From assembly GCA_021811805.1 (NCBI GenBank), contig JAKAQA010000002.1, positions 1 to 57,486 of the forward strand: 57,486 bases of DNA. The letters are read 5' to 3'. Every line of letters starts with the position of its first letter. The stretch's first letter is position 1. The position numbers and the translations under genes were made by a program. The notes below the pieces were generated by a model. That model did no database searches. It had not been told where the DNA came from and was given only the letters and a program-made list of their open reading frames with translations. Of the stretch, positions 4,890 through 35,714 are shown one piece after another. The DNA comes from a bacterium. Lineage in GTDB: Bacteria > SZUA-79 > Acidulodesulfobacterales > Acidulodesulfobacteraceae.

Positions 4890-6872
4890 ATGTTCGGTAA
4901 TCTTGCTTTAAACTTATCGGTGGATGCAGGGCTTTCGTTAGTGAACGACGTTATGAACGCCGTTTCGGAAAGCGCTTCGAGCCAGCCGCTTTCTTTGTCG
5001 GGCGGTGCGGGTGCCGGTTACGGCTCGTCGGGTTTCGGCGGGCAGGAGTCGTTCGGCGAAATGCTTAATAATTCTATAGACAACTTGTCTAATGCCGCTT
5101 CTGCCGTTTTGGGCGGCAATCAAAATCAAAGCCCGGCAGTCCAGCCTCAGCCCGCAAGCGGTTCGTCTAACCCTTACGGCAGTCAGCTTAATAATGCTTC
5201 CGATACGGCCGCTCCGACGTCCGTTTCGACGGCTGAACGACAGGCAAACGCAGGAGTAAATTCCGGCGGCAATAATTCCGCCGGCAGCCGAACGGGGAAT
5301 AATATAGGCGACAGTTCTTCCAATAATATTTCTTCATCCGGTCAGCCGGCAAATAATACGGTTAACGCAGGAACAAATTCAGGCAATAACGCCTCAAGCG
5401 GCGCCACTAAAGCCTCTAATTCGTCCGAGGGCAGGTCTGCAGGCGGCACGGCTAACGGCAATTCTCAGAAAACTTCAAATAGCGCAGGCTCTTCATCTAA
5501 ACATTCCGTTAAACATGATACAGGAAATAACGCAGGTTCAACAGGCAGCGGCAATTTAGCCGACGCACAGGCCGTTTATTTTATGGGAAATACAAACGCT
5601 AATATCGACGTCCATGCCCCTTCCTCAAAAAAAGGGGATAATGCCGCAAGCGGCAAAGCCGAGGGGACGGGGGCGGGAGGAGCAAACGTAAAACCTGGAG
5701 CTAAAACTCCATTATCCGCGGCGGATGCTTTATTATCAAACAGCCCCGCCGGTTTAAACAGTCGGCAATCTCAAAGTGCTGACAGTCAGGACGGGGGGAA
5801 CTTCGCCGGCAATTCTTCCGGCAAAACTTTTTTGTCGGCTTTTTCCGATAATGCCGGCAGGAAAATCGCCGATAATGCCGCCGTTCAAAGCGCACCCGTC
5901 AAAACCGGCGATACGGCCGATAAAAATGCCGTAACCGGCAATAATCAAAATAATCAAAACATTTTAAATAAAATAACGGAAAACAAAACAAACGCGGCGC
6001 CGAACGCAAGTATCGCTTCAAATGCCTCCGCATCGGTAAAATCGGCTGTTTCAAACGCAAATACCGCAAATACGAATACCGTAAATACCGCAAACGCAAA
6101 TGCCAAAACCCTCATTAAAGATGCCGCCGTTAATGCGCTTAATTTAAGCGTTCTAAGCGGGGAAGCAAAACCGGCTCTTTCAGCGGCGGACGGAAAAAAT
6201 ATCGAATCGTTATCCGCCGGAGCTTCCAAAGCCGGGGATTCGGGTTCCGTTTCTTCAAGCCTTTTCGATGCGGCAGGTTCTGCGGTTTCCGCCTCCGCCG
6301 GTTCGGGTTCGGCCTCTGCTTCAGGGGGAAATTCCGGCGGTTTCGGTTTAACCGGCGGCGGAGTCTCCGGTCTTGAAGACGGCGCTTCCGGAGAAACTTC
6401 AGGTTCTACGGCAATTAATTCCGTTATGTTTATGCTTAGAAAAAACGTCCAGTCGGCTACTATAACGTTAAATCCGGCATCGCTCGGCACGGTTAAAATA
6501 AATATATCTTTAAGCGGCGCTAATTCGGCTTTAAATCCGCTAAACCAGTCCGCGGTTTCTAACGGCTCAATAACGGTCAATATGCTTGCCCAGAACGAAG
6601 CGGCTAAAAATATTCTTCAATCGTCTTCGGATTCTCTGCAGAACGCGCTTAAAAATCAAGGGTTTTCGTCTATAAACTTGAATATAAGCACGGGTTCCGG
6701 TTATAATAACGGTAACGAAAACAACGGAAGCGGAGCTTTTAAAAATCCGTTTGCCGGCGTTAATTATAACGGCGGGTATTCAAACGGTTCGCAGGGGCAG
6801 GAGACGGTTTCGGCGGCAATAAATAATCTTTCGACCAGAAATCCTAACGCTTTAGTCGATTATTTCGTATAA
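4890..6872 (+). CDS. fliK: Flagellar hook-length control protein FliK
   Basis: 660 aa, much longer than enteric FliK (about 400 aa). Residues 1-520 are low-complexity Asn/Ser/Ala/Gly-rich sequence, which fits an unfolded molecular ruler. The Flg_hook C-terminal domain starts around 520: SATITLNPASLGTVKINISLSG, then NGSITVNMLAQNEAAKNILQSSSDSLQNALKNQGFSSINLNIS, which follows the family pattern of L-P-x-LG-x-V and a helix-rich switch region. It would measure hook length and switch FlhB substrate specificity. No good ribosome site is seen before the ATG. A second FliK-like protein lies at 28604. Confidence 0.88.
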   Translation: MFGNLALNLSVDAGLSLVNDVMNAVSESASSQPLSLSGGAGAGYGSSGFGGQESFGEMLNNSIDNLSNAASAVLGGNQNQSPAVQPQPASGSSNPYGSQLNNASDTAAPTSVSTAERQANAGVNSGGNNSAGSRTGNNIGDSSSNNISSSGQPANNTVNAGTNSGNNASSGATKASNSSEGRSAGGTANGNSQKTSNSAGSSSKHSVKHDTGNNAGSTGSGNLADAQAVYFMGNTNANIDVHAPSSKKGDNAASGKAEGTGAGGANVKPGAKTPLSAADALLSNSPAGLNSRQSQSADSQDGGNFAGNSSGKTFLSAFSDNAGRKIADNAAVQSAPVKTGDTADKNAVTGNNQNNQNILNKITENKTNAAPNASIASNASASVKSAVSNANTANTNTVNTANANAKTLIKDAAVNALNLSVLSGEAKPALSAADGKNIESLSAGASKAGDSGSVSSSLFDAAGSAVSASAGSGSASASGGNSGGFGLTGGGVSGLEDGASGETSGSTAINSVMFMLRKNVQSATITLNPASLGTVKINISLSGANSALNPLNQSAVSNGSITVNMLAQNEAAKNILQSSSDSLQNALKNQGFSSINLNISTGSGYNNGNENNGSGAFKNPFAGVNYNGGYSNGSQGQETVSAAINNLSTRNPNALVDYFV

Positions 6873-13145: not shown

Positions 13146-14231
13146 ATGGCCGAAGATAAATTCGATAAAACCGAACCCGCAAGTCCTAAAAGAATTCAGG
13201 ACGCCAGAGAAAACGGGCAGGTGATGAAATCCAGGGAGGTTACCAACGTCTTCGTATTCGTCGTCGTAATAATATACCTTTATTTTAATATTTCGCATAT
13301 AGGCAGAATAGTATCGGGGCAGTTAGTCTATTTTTTGTCTAATTTCTCCCGTTTAAACTTGAATTACGCCGCCTGCATTAATATCATAGACGGGCTGATT
13401 TATACGGTGGTTTACGCCGTTCTTCCGTTCGTACTTATAGTATTTTTTGCATCGCTGGTTTCAAACATAGCACAGGTAGGTTTTCTTTTGACCTTTCAGC
13501 CTTTAATCCCCAACATTACGCGCATCGACCCCGTTTCGGGCGTTAAAAGATTTTTTTCCTTACAGTCGGTCAACGAACTGGTAAAATCTATATTCAAATT
13601 TTTCGTTTTAACCGCAATAGCTTATTTTACATGCGCCCCTTATTTAAAAAAAATACTGGTTTTGCAGTATATGACTCCGTCTTTCGATATTTTTTTTACG
13701 GTTAAACTTATTTATAAACTTTTTTTTAATATTATTATGGCTATGGTAGTCCTCGCGATTGCCGATTTTTTCATACAGAGGTATCAATATAACAAAGGGC
13801 TTATGATGACGAAGCAGGAAGTCAAAGACGAAGCCAAGCAGTTCGAAGGCGACCAGCAGGTAAAAGGAAAAATAAGAAAAATGCAGAGGGAAATAGCCAG
13901 AAGAAGAATTTTAAAAGAGGTCAAGAATGCGCACGTTGTTATTACGAACCCTACCCACTTTGCCGTAGCCCTTAAATACGACAATAAAAAATACAACGCT
14001 CCGGTAGTGCTTGCAAAAGGCGCCGACAATCTTGCTCTTCTTATAAAAAAAATAGCAAAAGAAAACGATATTCCGACCGTAGAAAACAAATACGTCGCGA
14101 GGACTCTTTACGAAACGTGCGAACCGGGGCAGGCTATCCCCGCGTCTCTTTATAAAGCGGTAGCGGAAATACTCGCCCATCTATATACTACTAACGAAAA
14201 GTTTAAACAAATATGGAGTTTTATTAAATAA
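13146..14231 (+). CDS. flhB: Flagellar export switch protein FlhB
   Basis: 361 aa. It opens with MAEDKFDKTEPASPKRIQDARENGQVMKSREV, the conserved FlhB N terminus. Four membrane helices occupy residues 30-215. The cytoplasmic domain includes MMTKQEVKDEAKQFEGDQQVKGKIRKMQREIARRR and the autocleavage motif NPTH (VVITNPTHFAVALKYD). Cleavage at N-P switches export from rod/hook to filament substrates, working with FliK. A second, detached copy of the C-terminal domain (FlhX) is at 29517. The stop overlaps flhA by one base (TAATG). Confidence 0.97.
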   Translation: MAEDKFDKTEPASPKRIQDARENGQVMKSREVTNVFVFVVVIIYLYFNISHIGRIVSGQLVYFLSNFSRLNLNYAACINIIDGLIYTVVYAVLPFVLIVFFASLVSNIAQVGFLLTFQPLIPNITRIDPVSGVKRFFSLQSVNELVKSIFKFFVLTAIAYFTCAPYLKKILVLQYMTPSFDIFFTVKLIYKLFFNIIMAMVVLAIADFFIQRYQYNKGLMMTKQEVKDEAKQFEGDQQVKGKIRKMQREIARRRILKEVKNAHVVITNPTHFAVALKYDNKKYNAPVVLAKGADNLALLIKKIAKENDIPTVENKYVARTLYETCEPGQAIPASLYKAVAEILAHLYTTNEKFKQIWSFIK

Positions 14232-26739: not shown

Positions 26740-27570
26740 ATGAAAACTCCGTATGTTTTTGCGACGGCAAACCAGAAAGGCGGCGTAGGAAAAACAACGA
26801 CCGCTATTACTCTGGGAAGTTCCCTGTCTATTTTCGGATACAGGGTTCTGCTCGTCGATCTCGACCCGCAGGCGAGCCTTACTAACCATCTTGCCGTTGA
26901 ACCGGAAAAATTGGAATATTCGGTAGCTAATTTAATAATATCCGATTCGTTAAGTCCGGCTGAAGCCGTAATCAATAAATACAGGCTTAAAAACGGCGGC
27001 TGTATAGACCTTATCCCTTCGAATATCAACCTTGCCAGAATAGAAGCCGAACTCTCCAATTCCAAAGGCGGCGGATTAAAACTCAAAGAGAAATTAAAGT
27101 TTTTTTACGATAATTACGACTATATTATAATAGATTCTTCGCCCGCTTTAAGCGTTCTTCTTATAAGCGCCGTTGCGGCAAGCGACGAAATAATAATTCC
27201 GGTAATGTCTGATTTTTTATCGGTAAGGGGAGTAGAACTTCTGCTTTCCACAATAGATAAAATAGAAAAAGCGCTGGATTCGAGATGTACGTACAGGCTT
27301 TTAATTACTATGTTCGACAGGAGGACAAACTCTTCGCTTAAATCGCTGGATTATTTTAGAAATAAGTATAAAGATACGCATTTTAATAGTATAATTAATA
27401 TAGATACCAGATTCAGGGACGCAAGCATGCTCAGGAAGCCGCTCACATATATAGACGTTCATTCCAGGGGTGCGCTGGACTATATTAACGTCGCAAAGGA
27501 AATAATAGACGATTTTAATTTTAATAATAACGGCGGGGGCAAACGGAAAGAAGATGCAAAAAATGAATAA
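26740..27570 (+). CDS. parC: ParA-family ATPase, ParC-like chemotaxis array positioning protein
   Basis: 276 aa. Deviant Walker A ATANQKGGVGKTTTAITLGSSLSIFGYRVLLVDLDPQASLT, Walker B YIIIDSSPALSVLLISAVAASDEIIIPV, and the Soj/ParA-type tail. In Vibrio and Pseudomonas a ParA-like ATPase in the che operon (ParC) sends chemotaxis clusters to the pole and is followed by ParP, a CheW-domain protein. The same pairing is seen here: the next gene overlaps by 17 bases and has a CheW domain. No ParB is present, which argues against a chromosome or plasmid partition role. Confidence 0.82.
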   Translation: MKTPYVFATANQKGGVGKTTTAITLGSSLSIFGYRVLLVDLDPQASLTNHLAVEPEKLEYSVANLIISDSLSPAEAVINKYRLKNGGCIDLIPSNINLARIEAELSNSKGGGLKLKEKLKFFYDNYDYIIIDSSPALSVLLISAVAASDEIIIPVMSDFLSVRGVELLLSTIDKIEKALDSRCTYRLLITMFDRRTNSSLKSLDYFRNKYKDTHFNSIINIDTRFRDASMLRKPLTYIDVHSRGALDYINVAKEIIDDFNFNNNGGGKRKEDAKNE

Positions 27571-28306
27571 CGCTTTTAATTTATACGATTTAAAAGGCTA
27601 TAAGGCGGTCGGTTCGGATATCGTAACGCCGTGGATCGACGATTTGCTGGACAAAAAAAATACGGCTGAAACCGGACGGCAGGCGCAGATACTGTCTTAC
27701 CCGGTCGATAAATTGCTGACGCCGGAAACCTCATTAAATGCGGTTTTAGCCGCATCCGCTTTTCCCGCCCGAACCCCCTACAAAGTTTTCGATATACATA
27801 TCGCGTCTTCGGCCAGCAAAGCCGTTCCGGGAGTTTCGCCCGATTCTTCGTCCAAGCCCGAAATAGATTCGGAAAAGGAAGTTTTATATTTTACATTCGT
27901 ATCCAGGAATTCTCTTTATGCCCTTCCGGCTTTAAATATAAACGAAATAATAAAATACAAGACTCCGGTTAATATTTTTTCCAAAAAAGCCGGACATCTC
28001 GGAGTGATATCGTACAGAAACAGAATCGTCCCGATATACGATTTTTCGACGGTAGTAAACGGAGCCATGGATATTAAGGCTTTGTTAAAATATACCGTAA
28101 TTTGTGTTTACGAAAATAAATTTTTCGGATTGTCGGTAAGCGAAATAAAAAATATAACCGGGGTTAAAAATAAAAATCTTATCACGTCTTCATCGTTCAA
28201 ATTTAAAAACACGAATAATATAACCTCGGACGTATTCGAAGATGCGGAAGGAAAGTTTTATTCAGTTATAGATATAGAAAGTATTTTTAAATATTTAAAG
28301 TCTTAA
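27554..28306 (+). CDS. parP: ParP-like protein with C-terminal CheW domain
   Basis: 250 aa. The N-terminal 115 residues are a poorly conserved linker-like region (TPWIDDLLDKKNTAETGRQAQILSYPVDKLLTPE). The C-terminal half is a CheW-like domain: LYFTFVSRNSLYALPALNINEIIKYKTPVNIFSKKAGHLGVISYRNRIVPIYDFSTVV, then TVICVYENKFFGLSVSEIKNITGV. ParP binds ParC and CheA and keeps the array at the pole. The start overlaps the ATPase gene by 17 bases; an alternative Met lies three codons in. Identity rests on the domain plus context. Confidence 0.75.
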   Translation: MQKMNNAFNLYDLKGYKAVGSDIVTPWIDDLLDKKNTAETGRQAQILSYPVDKLLTPETSLNAVLAASAFPARTPYKVFDIHIASSASKAVPGVSPDSSSKPEIDSEKEVLYFTFVSRNSLYALPALNINEIIKYKTPVNIFSKKAGHLGVISYRNRIVPIYDFSTVVNGAMDIKALLKYTVICVYENKFFGLSVSEIKNITGVKNKNLITSSSFKFKNTNNITSDVFEDAEGKFYSVIDIESIFKYLKS

Positions 28307-28316
28307 CGTTATCGTT

Positions 28317-28607
28317 ATGATAGATACAGTAGAGCTTCAGCAAATTATTACAAATCTGCCTTCCGTTGAAAAAATAGCCGCGTCCTCCCATGTTTTAGCC
28401 GTAAATTCAAACAATATAATTCAGAAAGAAATGGAAAATACCGATGAAGCCGCTTTAAATACCGTGGTCGAATTAAGCGAAGTGCTCGAACCGGTTAACG
28501 ATAAAAACAAGAATCGCAAGGAAGAAGAAAAGAAGAAAGAAGAAGAGGGAAAAGAGGCTGAAGAAGGAGCAGGCGGCAATAACCCTCATGTAGATTTAGT
28601 CGTATGA
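28317..28607 (+). CDS. Small acidic/lysine-rich protein of unknown function
   Basis: 96 aa, not recognised as a named family. Residues 1-40 look like a short helix pair (MIDTVELQQIITNLPSVEKIAASSHVLAVNSNNI); residues 58-88 are a charged run (KNKNRKEEEKKKEEEGKEAEEGAGG); it ends HVDLVV. The stop overlaps the next gene by four bases (ATGA), so it is translationally coupled to the FliK-like protein and FlhX. Probably a flagellar accessory protein; the role is unknown. Confidence 0.7.
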   Translation: MIDTVELQQIITNLPSVEKIAASSHVLAVNSNNIIQKEMENTDEAALNTVVELSEVLEPVNDKNKNRKEEEKKKEEEGKEAEEGAGGNNPHVDLVV

Positions 28608-29530
28608 ATTATATAGCGGGGCAGACGGACGGGCCCGTCCGTCTAAGCGGGAAAGATAATATAATATCAGGAATCATCAAGGAAAAAATAACATCTTCCC
28701 TTTTAGAAATATTAAAACCGGGAAGTATAGTAGATGCCGATTTAATAAGCGTTTCGTCCGGCGAAGCGGGTTCTCCGAGCGGCATATTGAATATTAACGG
28801 CAAACTTTTGACGGCGGTTATCCCCGAAAGCCTTTACGACGAATTTACTTTAGGAAAAGCGTTCGACGAGAGTTTCGGCATTCCGGTTAAACTAAGGCTT
28901 GAAAGCTCAGTTAAAAACATTCCGTTAAACGAAAACGCGGGCGCGGGCGTCGAAATAGTATTTAAAGTGGTAGCCGATGCGGCTGATGATCTTAATATTC
29001 AAAAAGTCCTGGATTTATATAGCAAAGCATTTACAGGCGGTTTGGAGGGCGATATTGGGGCCGCTTTTAAATCTTTTTCGGCATCAGGTTTAAGCGCTTC
29101 CATACAAAACGTAACGGCCGAGGTAAAAGGCAATTTTTTGTTTGTTCATATTAATTTCGGCACAGGGTTCGGTTCGGGTTCGGTTATTTTAACCTCTGAA
29201 CGTGCCCGCTATATAAAGGACGCACCCGATAAAAAAAAATCGTTAAGCGCCGCTCCGAAAAAATATATGTTAATGCTTGAAACGGAATTTAACCTGTTAG
29301 GCCGAATTAAGTTGTTTTCATATTATTCCGCTAAATTCCTTAGCGTTAAATTTCAGGAATGTCCTGCGGCGGCAAGAGAACTTATAAATAAAAATCTTGA
29401 ATCGTTCAAAGAAATGCTGTCGAAAGACGGAATAACTCTTAAAGATATATCTTTTAAGGCTGATGCTGGAACTTTCGCCTCCGGCGGAGAAACATTTTAC
29501 GGAGGGAAAATAATAGATGAAAGAGTCTAA
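28604..29530 (+). CDS. FliK-like hook-length-control-related protein
   Basis: 308 aa. The C-terminal third resembles the Flg_hook/FliK C-terminal domain: YMLMLETEFNLLGRIKLFSYYSAKFLSVKFQECPAAARELINKNLESFKEMLSKDGITLKDISFKA, that is, beta strands with LG-x-I/V followed by the amphipathic helix and a final strand. The N-terminal part (1-130) begins with NIISGIIKEKITSSLLEILKPGSIVDADLISVSS, seen in some FliK-related proteins. A canonical FliK exists at 4890, so this is a second one. It overlaps flhX by 14 bases, and a FliK-like/FlhX pairing makes sense because FliK acts on FlhB. The family call is tentative. Confidence 0.6.
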   Translation: MNYIAGQTDGPVRLSGKDNIISGIIKEKITSSLLEILKPGSIVDADLISVSSGEAGSPSGILNINGKLLTAVIPESLYDEFTLGKAFDESFGIPVKLRLESSVKNIPLNENAGAGVEIVFKVVADAADDLNIQKVLDLYSKAFTGGLEGDIGAAFKSFSASGLSASIQNVTAEVKGNFLFVHINFGTGFGSGSVILTSERARYIKDAPDKKKSLSAAPKKYMLMLETEFNLLGRIKLFSYYSAKFLSVKFQECPAAARELINKNLESFKEMLSKDGITLKDISFKADAGTFASGGETFYGGKIIDERV

Positions 29531-29807
29531 GTTTAAATTAGCCAAGGCGACTGCCCTGCGATACGACCCTAAAAAAAATAACGCTCCGGTCGTTATATCA
29601 AAAGGCAGGGGAGAGCTTGCCGAAAAAATTATCGAAATCGCAAAAAAAGAAAATATACCTATAACTAAAAATAACGCGCTTGCCGATATACTCGACGGGT
29701 TGGATATTTACCAGGAAATTCCGCCCGAACTTTATAAGGCGATAGCGAATATTTTTGCGTTTTTGTACGAGTTAAACGAAAAAGCCGTTAAACCGTCCCT
29801 TTCATAG
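29517..29807 (+). CDS. flhX: FlhX: stand-alone FlhB C-terminal domain homologue
   Basis: 96 aa. Matches the part of FlhB downstream of the autocleavage site: FKLAKATALRYDPKKNNAPVVISKGRGELAEKIIEIAKKENIPITKNNALADILDGLDIYQEIPPELYKAIANIFAFLYELN. Compare FlhB at 13146 (FAVALKYDNKKYNAPVVLAKGADNLALLIKKIAKENDIPTVENK). The NPTH motif and membrane domain are absent, so it mimics the cleaved C-terminal fragment. Such proteins occur in many flagellated bacteria and can partly substitute for the FlhB fragment in substrate switching. Its 3' end overlaps the convergent PilZ gene by 20 bases. Confidence 0.88.
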   Translation: MKESKFKLAKATALRYDPKKNNAPVVISKGRGELAEKIIEIAKKENIPITKNNALADILDGLDIYQEIPPELYKAIANIFAFLYELNEKAVKPSLS

Positions 29808-30507
29808 CGCCGACTATTTCCCGCTGTCTTCTTAATATATACTTAAACAAAACATCCTGCTCGGCAGGTTTTAAATTGATAGCCTGAGCGCCTACTTTAT
29901 ATTTAAGATTGTCGAGTCTGGCTATAGACCTTATTTCCATTCTTACCGTAATTTCCTTCAGTCCGCCTGGAAATTGAATTTTTACGCCCTCTAAAACGGT
30001 ATGTTTTTCTAAGGGGAAATCGAGCAGAAAAGAAAGTCCATCGCCGGACAGGTCGAACAGTACCGAATCGAAATATTTATTATTCAGAAAGAAAGAAATT
30101 TTTACCGGTTCGTTTAAAGAAGGTTCTATCCTGAAAAACTTTCTTTTTTCGAGAGATAATATTTCTATAGGCTTATAAATTTCGAAGACGAAATAATCTC
30201 CTTCTTTTTCGTAATTATATAATTTTGAAAGAAAGAAATGCTCATTACTGCCGAATTTAAATGCGGCTTTAATATAGGAAGATTCGATAAGTTTTAAATT
30301 CCCCGATTTGGGAACCATAGAATCTATAGCGATAGATTCGTCTTTGACTTTAAGTATATTAGTCGTATATTCGTCGTTGAAAGGAACCGGATAAAGAATA
30401 ACCGGTTTTTTCTGGTTGGCGAACCCTTTAAGTATGGCGTTAATTTCCTGCTTTTTGGAATATACGTTAATATCGGGATTTTCTTTCAGTTTTTTAATAT
30501 CGAACAT
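29788..30507 (-). CDS. YcgR-like PilZ-domain protein
   Basis: 239 aa. The N-terminal domain (residues 15-110) resembles the YcgR/PilZN partner domain (QEINAILKGFANQKKPVILYPVPFNDEYTTNILKV). The C-terminal PilZ domain carries both c-di-GMP-binding motifs: EKRKFFRIEPS (RxxxR) and DLSGDGLSF (D/NxSxxG). YcgR-type proteins bind c-di-GMP and slow the flagellar motor. It converges on flhX with a 20-base overlap and is followed by the DsrE-like gene's 5' neighbour on the same strand (15-base gap). Confidence 0.86.
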   Translation of the reverse strand: MFDIKKLKENPDINVYSKKQEINAILKGFANQKKPVILYPVPFNDEYTTNILKVKDESIAIDSMVPKSGNLKLIESSYIKAAFKFGSNEHFFLSKLYNYEKEGDYFVFEIYKPIEILSLEKRKFFRIEPSLNEPVKISFFLNNKYFDSVLFDLSGDGLSFLLDFPLEKHTVLEGVKIQFPGGLKEITVRMEIRSIARLDNLKYKVGAQAINLKPAEQDVLFKYILRRQREIVGAMKGTV

Positions 30508-30522
30508 ATGAGGCGGCTTATC

Positions 30523-30843
30523 CTAAAATAATAATATCCTGTCTTTTTCTTCGAGCCCGCTTACCATTTTTGCGTTTTCGAACTGCGAAGCATAGTTAAA
30601 ATCGCCTATACGCGATATTACTCCGTTAACGCCGCAGGAATGTTCGCAAACGGAAACCCTATCCACGTTATGTTTATATTTTTTAATAAGCGAAATAAAT
30701 TCTTTATCTTCAGTCAAAAAGACTCCCTTATCCATAATAAAAACCGATACTGCGAAATCCCTTTCCGCCGCCGCTCGGATTAAACCGTAAATATGGCCGG
30801 CATATTTATCGTTCGTAATAATAAAGGCGAGTTTTCCGTTCAT
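30523..30843 (-). CDS. DsrE/DsrF-like small protein
   Basis: 106 aa. Rossmann-like start (KLAFIITNDKYAGHIYGLIRAAAERDFAVSVFIMDKGVFLTED) and a Cys motif late in the sequence (SVCEHSCGVNG), matching the DsrE/F/TusD-like superfamily. These proteins often carry persulfide sulfur on a conserved Cys, but many members have no known task. Upstream of the PilZ gene on the same strand, probably co-transcribed. An odd neighbour for flagellar genes. Confidence 0.65.
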   Translation of the reverse strand: MNGKLAFIITNDKYAGHIYGLIRAAAERDFAVSVFIMDKGVFLTEDKEFISLIKKYKHNVDRVSVCEHSCGVNGVISRIGDFNYASQFENAKMVSGLEEKDRILLF

Positions 30844-35411: not shown

Positions 35412-35714
35412 ATGGCAATCGAAATTTCCGGAATTACGTCGTCCGTTATAGGCGAAATACCGCAAAACAACAATAACGGTAAGAAAAAAGAAGTAAGCGG
35501 CCCTGAAGCCGGTCAGGCGGCAGGTTCCGATAAGGTCAGCATTTCGGAAGGCGCTAGTTTTATCGGCAGTTTAAAAAGCGCAGTGAACGAGGCTCAGTCG
35601 GCTCCTCTTTCCAAAATTAACGATATCAAGCAAAATATAGCATCGGGAAATTATGCCGATTCTTCAAAAATTGCCGAAGGGCTGATAAACAGTTTAAATA
35701 TTACCGGCGAATAG
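35412..35714 (+). CDS. flgM: Anti-sigma-28 factor FlgM
   Basis: 100 aa, usual length. Unstructured N-terminal half (QNNNNGKKKEVSGPEAGQAAGSDKVSISEGASF), then the FliA-binding helices SLKSAVNEAQSAPLSKINDIKQNIASGNYADSSKIAEGLINSLNI. It holds FliA until the hook-basal body is complete and is then exported. Good ribosome site (AGAAGG). Upstream of the flgN-like gene and flgK, the usual order. Confidence 0.92.
   Translation: MAIEISGITSSVIGEIPQNNNNGKKKEVSGPEAGQAAGSDKVSISEGASFIGSLKSAVNEAQSAPLSKINDIKQNIASGNYADSSKIAEGLINSLNITGE

Follow-up and report, generated by a model that had tools for sequence, protein, structure and literature searches.

A small protein family with a FliK-like C-terminal pentapeptide, encoded beside FliK2 and FlhX in flagellar gene clusters

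Genes at the locus

The window, the whole stretch of 57,486 nucleotides analyzed here, is an entire contig of an 84%-complete genome, and flagellar and chemotaxis genes fill almost all of it. Three genes on its plus strand, at 28317-28607 (96 aa), 28604-29530 (308 aa), and 29517-29807 (96 aa), form an overlapping trio, as an earlier note on this DNA had described: the small gene and FliK2 share 4 bases (28604-28607), and FliK2 and FlhX share 14 bases (29517-29530). A ribosome-binding-like GGAGG lies approximately 10 to 15 bases 5' of the FlhX ATG, and the three genes are presumably cotranslated. The full-length FlhB and FliK genes that the note had placed in the same genome both lie in the window, and a search with PF02120 across the 84%-complete genome found no third FliK. 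The features used below are as follows.

28317-28607, plus strand: small charged protein of an unnamed family, 96 aa, with an N-terminal helix MIDTVELQQIITNLPSVEK, a Lys/Glu-rich variable middle, and the tail HVDLVV
28590-28604, plus strand: codons for VDLVV, the last five residues of the small protein (FliK-type tail, from the tail-pattern count)
28604-29530, plus strand: FliK2, a short FliK-like protein of 308 aa, with a beta domain at its N terminus and a T3S4/FliK-C domain at its C terminus
28727-28969, plus strand: FliK2 N-terminal beta-rich domain, residues ~42-122; predicted model of moderate confidence, no ruler signature
29261-29455, plus strand: FliK2 FliK-C/T3S4 fold, residues ~220-284, from the predicted model and fold search
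29513-29530, plus strand: FliK2 tail IDERV and stop, dual-coded with the FlhX start (MKESK); read from the sequence, constant in the window's family
29517-29807, plus strand: FlhX, 96 aa, free-standing copy of the cleaved FlhB C-terminal domain (PF01312, TIGR00789, FlhB-CC structure match)
13146-14231, plus strand: full-length FlhB with an intact NPTH autocleavage motif
4890-6872, plus strand: canonical ruler-type FliK, 660 aa, ending in ALVDYFV

Directly 5' of the trio, at 26740-28306, are a ParA-family ATPase gene and then a CheW-domain gene whose product carries 110 extra aa at its N terminus, a pair that we take to resemble ParC-ParP, which places chemotaxis arrays at the cell poles. A YcgR-type PilZN-PilZ gene (c-di-GMP brake; 29788-30507, minus strand) converges on flhX, overlapping its end by 20 bases, and likewise neighbors flhX in relatives. 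The flagellar cluster also contains a DsrE/DsrF-like gene (30523-30843, minus strand), which adjoins the PilZ gene in relatives too.

FlhX and FliK2

The proposal that the third gene copies the cleaved FlhB fragment was supported by both sequence and structure searches. FlhX matches PF01312 at an E value of 5.9e-21, with homology to the FlhB C-terminal domain over its whole length, and its closest solved structure is FlhB-CC (3b1s, chain 3b1s_B; E=1.2e-16). The protein starts MKESKFKLAKATALRYDP, which corresponds to a point just past the expected NPTH position; it has no NPTH cleavage site and no membrane segments, and the full FlhB is encoded elsewhere in the window. TIGR00789 (flhB_rel) is its top-scoring NCBIfam model, ahead of the full-length FlhB models, at 104.4 bits, which is below the cut-off of 117.35 that none of the tested relatives reaches. 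The third gene is FlhX by architecture, although it falls outside that curated limit. Among the other loci, the FlhX of one genome (G034, C26:92612-92848) reads through an in-frame TAA and may be broken or missequenced, and a 940-aa frame in G057 was considered as a fusion of FlhX with another domain, but no FliK fusion was seen on reading the region. We know of no FlhX in Salmonella.

The middle gene had been likened to the FliK C-terminal domain, and the structure prediction agrees with that assignment. By profile, FliK2 matches PF02120 over residues 243-289 at an E value of 2.8e-5, scoring 24.3 bits against a curated cut-off of 29.8; several orthologues of the same genus score above that cut-off, and 31 of the 33 aligned FliK2 family members match at E<0.01. 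A plain sequence search of FliK2 against the PDB gave no match. An AlphaFold2 model built from the 33 sequences has an overall pLDDT of 64. In its C-terminal domain (residues 220-284), which is predicted to form three strands, two helices, and one strand, block-mean pLDDT values are mostly 82-88, with 69 for the last block (281-290). Using Foldseek against the PDB, we obtained the PscP switch domain 5cuk as the first match (probability, 1.00; rmsd, 2.4 over 65 columns; E, 0.04) and FliK-C 2rrl as the fifth (probability, 0.99; E, 0.13). These E values are weak (above 0.001) because the rest of the FliK2 model is of low confidence; therefore, the fold call rests on the probability, the rmsd, and the agreement with PF02120. 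With that basis, the C-terminal domain is predicted to have the FliK-C/T3S4 fold.

The remainder of FliK2 is unlike a canonical FliK. At 308 aa versus 660 aa for the window's canonical FliK, it has an N-terminal domain for which AlphaFold2 predicts beta strands with moderate confidence (residues 42-52, 58-64, 67-72, 93-106, and 115-122); this domain matches no family, and no ruler is recognizable in the sequence or the predicted model. In the window's family of bacteria, the FliK2 tail reads II[DN]E[RKQ][VIA], with Glu where a hydrophobic residue is usual, perhaps because this tail is dual-coded with the start of FlhX. Other FliK2 proteins have tails such as LVDIKT, LINVKA, and LDIRA.

The small protein, its tail, and its distribution

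Next to this pair is a protein that had no name in the libraries searched. Thirty members of the small family were compared with Pfam and NCBIfam, and they matched no family, giving only scattered chance-level matches; judged by its sequences, the small gene represents an unnamed but deep protein family. In the alignment, its members share a conserved N-terminal helix (QQII...VEK, with an invariant E18), a charged variable middle, and a nearly invariant tail. For the small protein of the window, helices are predicted at residues 4-12 and 16-48, and the C-terminal part is of low confidence. We rejected three other identities. The small protein is not FlgM (anti-sigma-28), since PF04316 matched none of the 30 members and FlgM is a separate gene at 35412-35714. 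An LcrG-type type III secretion chaperone (PF07216/TIGR02573) was matched by 1 of the 30, at an E value of about 0.02, which we took as chance. Finally, homology of the whole small protein to FliK2 was not supported, as profile-profile comparison gave no link; therefore, the likeness between the two is limited to the tail.

That tail follows the pattern [VIL]-[DN]-[VILFM]-x-[AVIT]-COOH, represented in the window by VDLVV. It is present in 58 of 59 small-family frames, the exception ending in VDLIL (a copy in G172, outside the 59-frame count, ends in VDLVG). Against a background of frames from the sampled loci, the pattern ends only 3 of 2,477 other frames of 60-149 aa and 39 of 454 stop-to-stop frames of at least 150 aa; of these 39, 36 match the FliK2 profile and 3 are PF02120-positive canonical FliKs. 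The first of these counts calls for caution, since some small-family members were recovered using a profile in which the tail is included. However, the small genes of the window's family, of a second phylum, and of G059 were found by their position near FlhX, and all but the VDLIL locus carry the tail. Within the small family, conservation of the tail equals that of the N-terminal helix, with four of the five tail columns fully conserved in residue class.

Because the carriers of at least 150 aa are all FliK-type proteins and the shorter frames divide as 58 of 59 versus 3 of 2,477, the pattern is, in the sampled loci, a sequence signature of FliK proteins and the small family. The E. coli FliK C terminus is SGVDIFA, and the strict pattern is missing from some canonical FliKs. 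We identify the small-family tail, as a sequence motif, with the pentapeptide that ends FliK (VDIFA in E. coli and LDIRI in Caulobacter). It is the best clue to the role of the small partner, and the earlier note had missed it. Given how short the tail is, and given that profile comparison gave no link between the small protein and FliK2, the likeness could also have arisen convergently for some other use, for example as a Lon degron.

A degron of this kind would make FliK-type and small proteins short-lived instead of contacting FlhB or FlhX. When Caulobacter FliK lacks its last five residues, LDIRI, its degradation by Lon stops (Omnus et al. 2021, PMC8545394). However, the same deletion abolishes the effect of excess FliK-C on motility and flagellin (PMC8545394), work in Salmonella assigns the last five residues of FliK to FlhB-CCD (PMC13344023), and the tail is restricted, in the sampled loci, to FliK-type proteins and the small family. 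A Lon degron in place of a contact with FlhB or FlhX is a real alternative for the shared tail, but we consider it highly improbable.

The small gene was then followed across genomes. In the window's family (21 genomes in four genera), it lies 5' of FliK2-FlhX at 21 of 21 FlhX loci, in the same order, and FliK2 and FlhX overlap by exactly 14 bases at every one. Because it is kept at all of these loci with an identical overlap, the trio is not a chance arrangement. In the second phylum, the small gene lies 0.5-2 kb 5' of FlhX at 19 of the 19 loci with enough upstream sequence, usually with a DUF2802/DUF6115 gene between the two. Thus, conservation of the small gene beside flhX, on which the earlier reading of a three-gene module depended, was found in both groups. 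It is also present in G059, and a profile search of 291 genomes recovered it in 43. The 19 more distant matches are all in genomes that encode FlhB or FlhX (19 of 19), though the weakest of them (e.g., G053, G200, and G174) may be chance. The small gene, FliK2, and FlhX form one cluster in seven of the genomes (G307, G167, G183, G244, G242, G168, and G293), and the distant clusters are often directly 3' of the flagellar sigma factor gene. The trio occurs in more than a dozen other families, usually with the DUF2802/DUF6115 gene inserted; MAGs of Nitrospinota, Nitrospirae, and Desulfobacterota/Syntrophales are among these. The named carriers of the small gene are MAGs of Nitrospirae, Nitrospinota, Deltaproteobacteria, Syntrophales, Smithella, and Desulfobacterales. 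The inserted gene encodes a membrane-type protein (FipA-like, perhaps SwrB-like); it lies between the small gene and FliK2 at L065, L067, L068, L077, L085, L146, and L170-L172 and is absent from the window's trio. One genome of the same genus as the window (G003, contigs C41 and C76) has two FliK genes and two FlhB genes on separate contigs, so it probably holds two flagellar clusters, but it has one trio.

The module is not always complete. FlhX occurs without FliK2 nearby in G046, G039, and G056, and FliK2-FlhX pairs without the small gene exist in G045 and G052, so the small protein is not obligatory. The clearest split was seen at 2 of the 19 second-phylum loci (G062:C199 and G063:C260, Nitrospinota-type), where FliK2 (frames of 617-634 aa) is on another contig from the small gene, the DUF protein, and FlhX; its presence there excludes loss of FliK2 from these genomes. 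These cases bear on whether the small protein serves FliK2 in the cytoplasm as a chaperone or adaptor, held by its N-terminal helix, with the tail being secondary. The 4-base gene overlap in the window and the conserved order of small gene, FliK2, and FlhX are consistent with a chaperone, as is the fact that both genomes with a separated FliK2 still encode it. However, a chaperone of FliK2 does not explain why the tail is as conserved as the helix, why the two Nitrospinota genomes keep the small gene with FlhX and not with FliK2, or how the FliK2 proteins of G045 and G052 do without it, and we regard this role as quite unlikely.

The same distribution bears on the module as a backup, in which FlhX would be a spare part, idle as long as FlhB is intact, with the other two genes as near-neutral passengers. 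The Helicobacter FlhX homologue HP1575 is called a "spare part" when the FlhB-CC domain is deleted, in the title of Wand et al. 2006. A backup without function is nevertheless hard to reconcile with a linkage of three genes that has long been conserved in many families, small genomes of 1.5-2 Mb among them, and we assign it the slightest probability of the readings weighed here.

Proposed role and known systems

Chevance et al. 2026 (PMC13344023) showed that the cleaved domain of FlhB serves as a lock, whose loss when the hook is complete depends on FliK. The Salmonella model proposes that FliK contacts FlhB-CCD through its five C-terminal residues, which destabilize and eject it, so that export flips from hook to filament proteins (PMC13344023). 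In the trio, a peptide that independent experiments support as the functional end of FliK is encoded beside a detached copy of its presumed target domain, and for this reason we place the role of the small protein on FlhX/FlhB. We propose that the trio is a conserved accessory module of the export-specificity switch and that its small protein works on FlhX/FlhB-CCD as a free-standing FliK tail, a proposal that we consider to have an even chance of being correct. The gene anatomy, the folds, the conservation, and the identity of the tail motif are the observed part of this proposal, whereas the binding of the tail to FlhX/FlhB and the direction in which it acts are inferred.

In the proposed mechanism, FlhX would be a ready-made copy of FlhB-CCD that sits at the FlhB seat on the export gate or replaces the ejected domain. 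FliK2 would be a ruler-less FliK whose T3S4 domain engages FlhB-CCD/FlhX. The small protein, which is predicted to be flexible, would dock on a partner with its N-terminal helix, and its last five residues (VDLVV) would touch the same FlhX/FlhB-CCD surface as the FliK tail, such that FliK2 and the small protein might both address FlhX via FliK-type tails. Because it has neither a T3S4 fold nor a ruler, the small protein should be unable to measure length or to impose the secretion pause that is attributed to the T3S4 fold. A protein with only the tail would instead compete with, prime, or time the switch step, independently of hook length; likeliest is that it competes with FliK, holding the switch until FliK arrives.

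The earlier note had gone further in one direction, describing a complete second switch set with a small unknown partner. A conserved FliK2-FlhX unit with a small partner stands, but completeness was overstated because FlhX lacks the membrane part and NPTH and FliK2 lacks a recognizable ruler. Nothing in the analysis points to the second class of substrates that the note had also suggested.

A different role on the same domain is conceivable given the Xanthomonas type III secretion system, where the small protein HrpB2 and the FliK-type HpaC both bind HrcU-C, an FlhB-type domain, and HpaC limits HrpB2 export (PMC3040844). By analogy, the small protein could bind FlhB-CCD/FlhX ahead of the switch, as an early export substrate or plug, and be released or secreted when the switch occurs. 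It is made next to FliK2 and FlhX and is predicted to be a helix with a flexible tail, both of which fit such a substrate. However, no match to rod or inner-rod families was found in the 30 small-family members, and the tail matches FliK and no other protein of these loci. We therefore view an early substrate or plug as unlikely and prefer a FliK tail acting on FlhX/FlhB-CCD.

More broadly, this multiphylum family of ~100-aa proteins may be a FliK switch tail without hook measuring, that is, a second, ruler-independent input to the hook-to-filament switch, a tentative reading whose chances we put slightly short of even. The action of FliK's terminal residues on the cleaved FlhB domain is under active study, and the 2026 ejection model rests on Salmonella. 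Together with the detached FlhB domain encoded next to it, a natural protein that has the FliK tail alone would form a minimal pair for that model. If true, this could explain the retention of flhX in so many bacteria, and a family missing from the curated libraries searched (Pfam and NCBIfam) gains a testable role.

We found no description of the small tail protein in the open-access literature; subscription papers were outside the scope of that search, and an earlier description is possible. FlhX of the window is like H. pylori HP1575 and C. jejuni Cj0848c in being a free-standing FlhB C-terminal domain beside a full FlhB, with the same fold family and length. Whereas these are described as a spare part or a listed flagellar gene, the window's flhX overlaps FliK2 and clusters with the tail protein. 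FliK2 resembles FliK (PF02120) and the T3S4 proteins PscP and HpaC in its predicted C-terminal T3S4 fold and, in many of its members, the pentapeptide pattern; it differs in being shorter, in having an N-terminal beta domain instead of a recognizable ruler, and in coexisting with a full FliK. In Campylobacterota, a gene-order remark records an "flhX-fliK" pair (PMC9321776), in which a FliK-type gene likewise adjoins flhX; unlike the trio, that remark mentions no small tail protein. FipA (DUF2802) is a membrane flagellar-placement factor (PMC11620751), and DUF2802/FipA or DUF6115 genes, which in other phyla usually separate the small gene from FliK2, are not part of the window's trio. The binding of a small protein and a T3S4 protein to one FlhB-type C-terminal domain, which we propose here, was shown for HrpB2, HpaC, and HrcU in Xanthomonas (PMC3040844), although HrpB2, which pilus assembly requires, is exported early and we found no sequence relation between it and the small protein. 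The FliK2-FlhX pair is of an already known kind, and the conserved tail protein is the new element.
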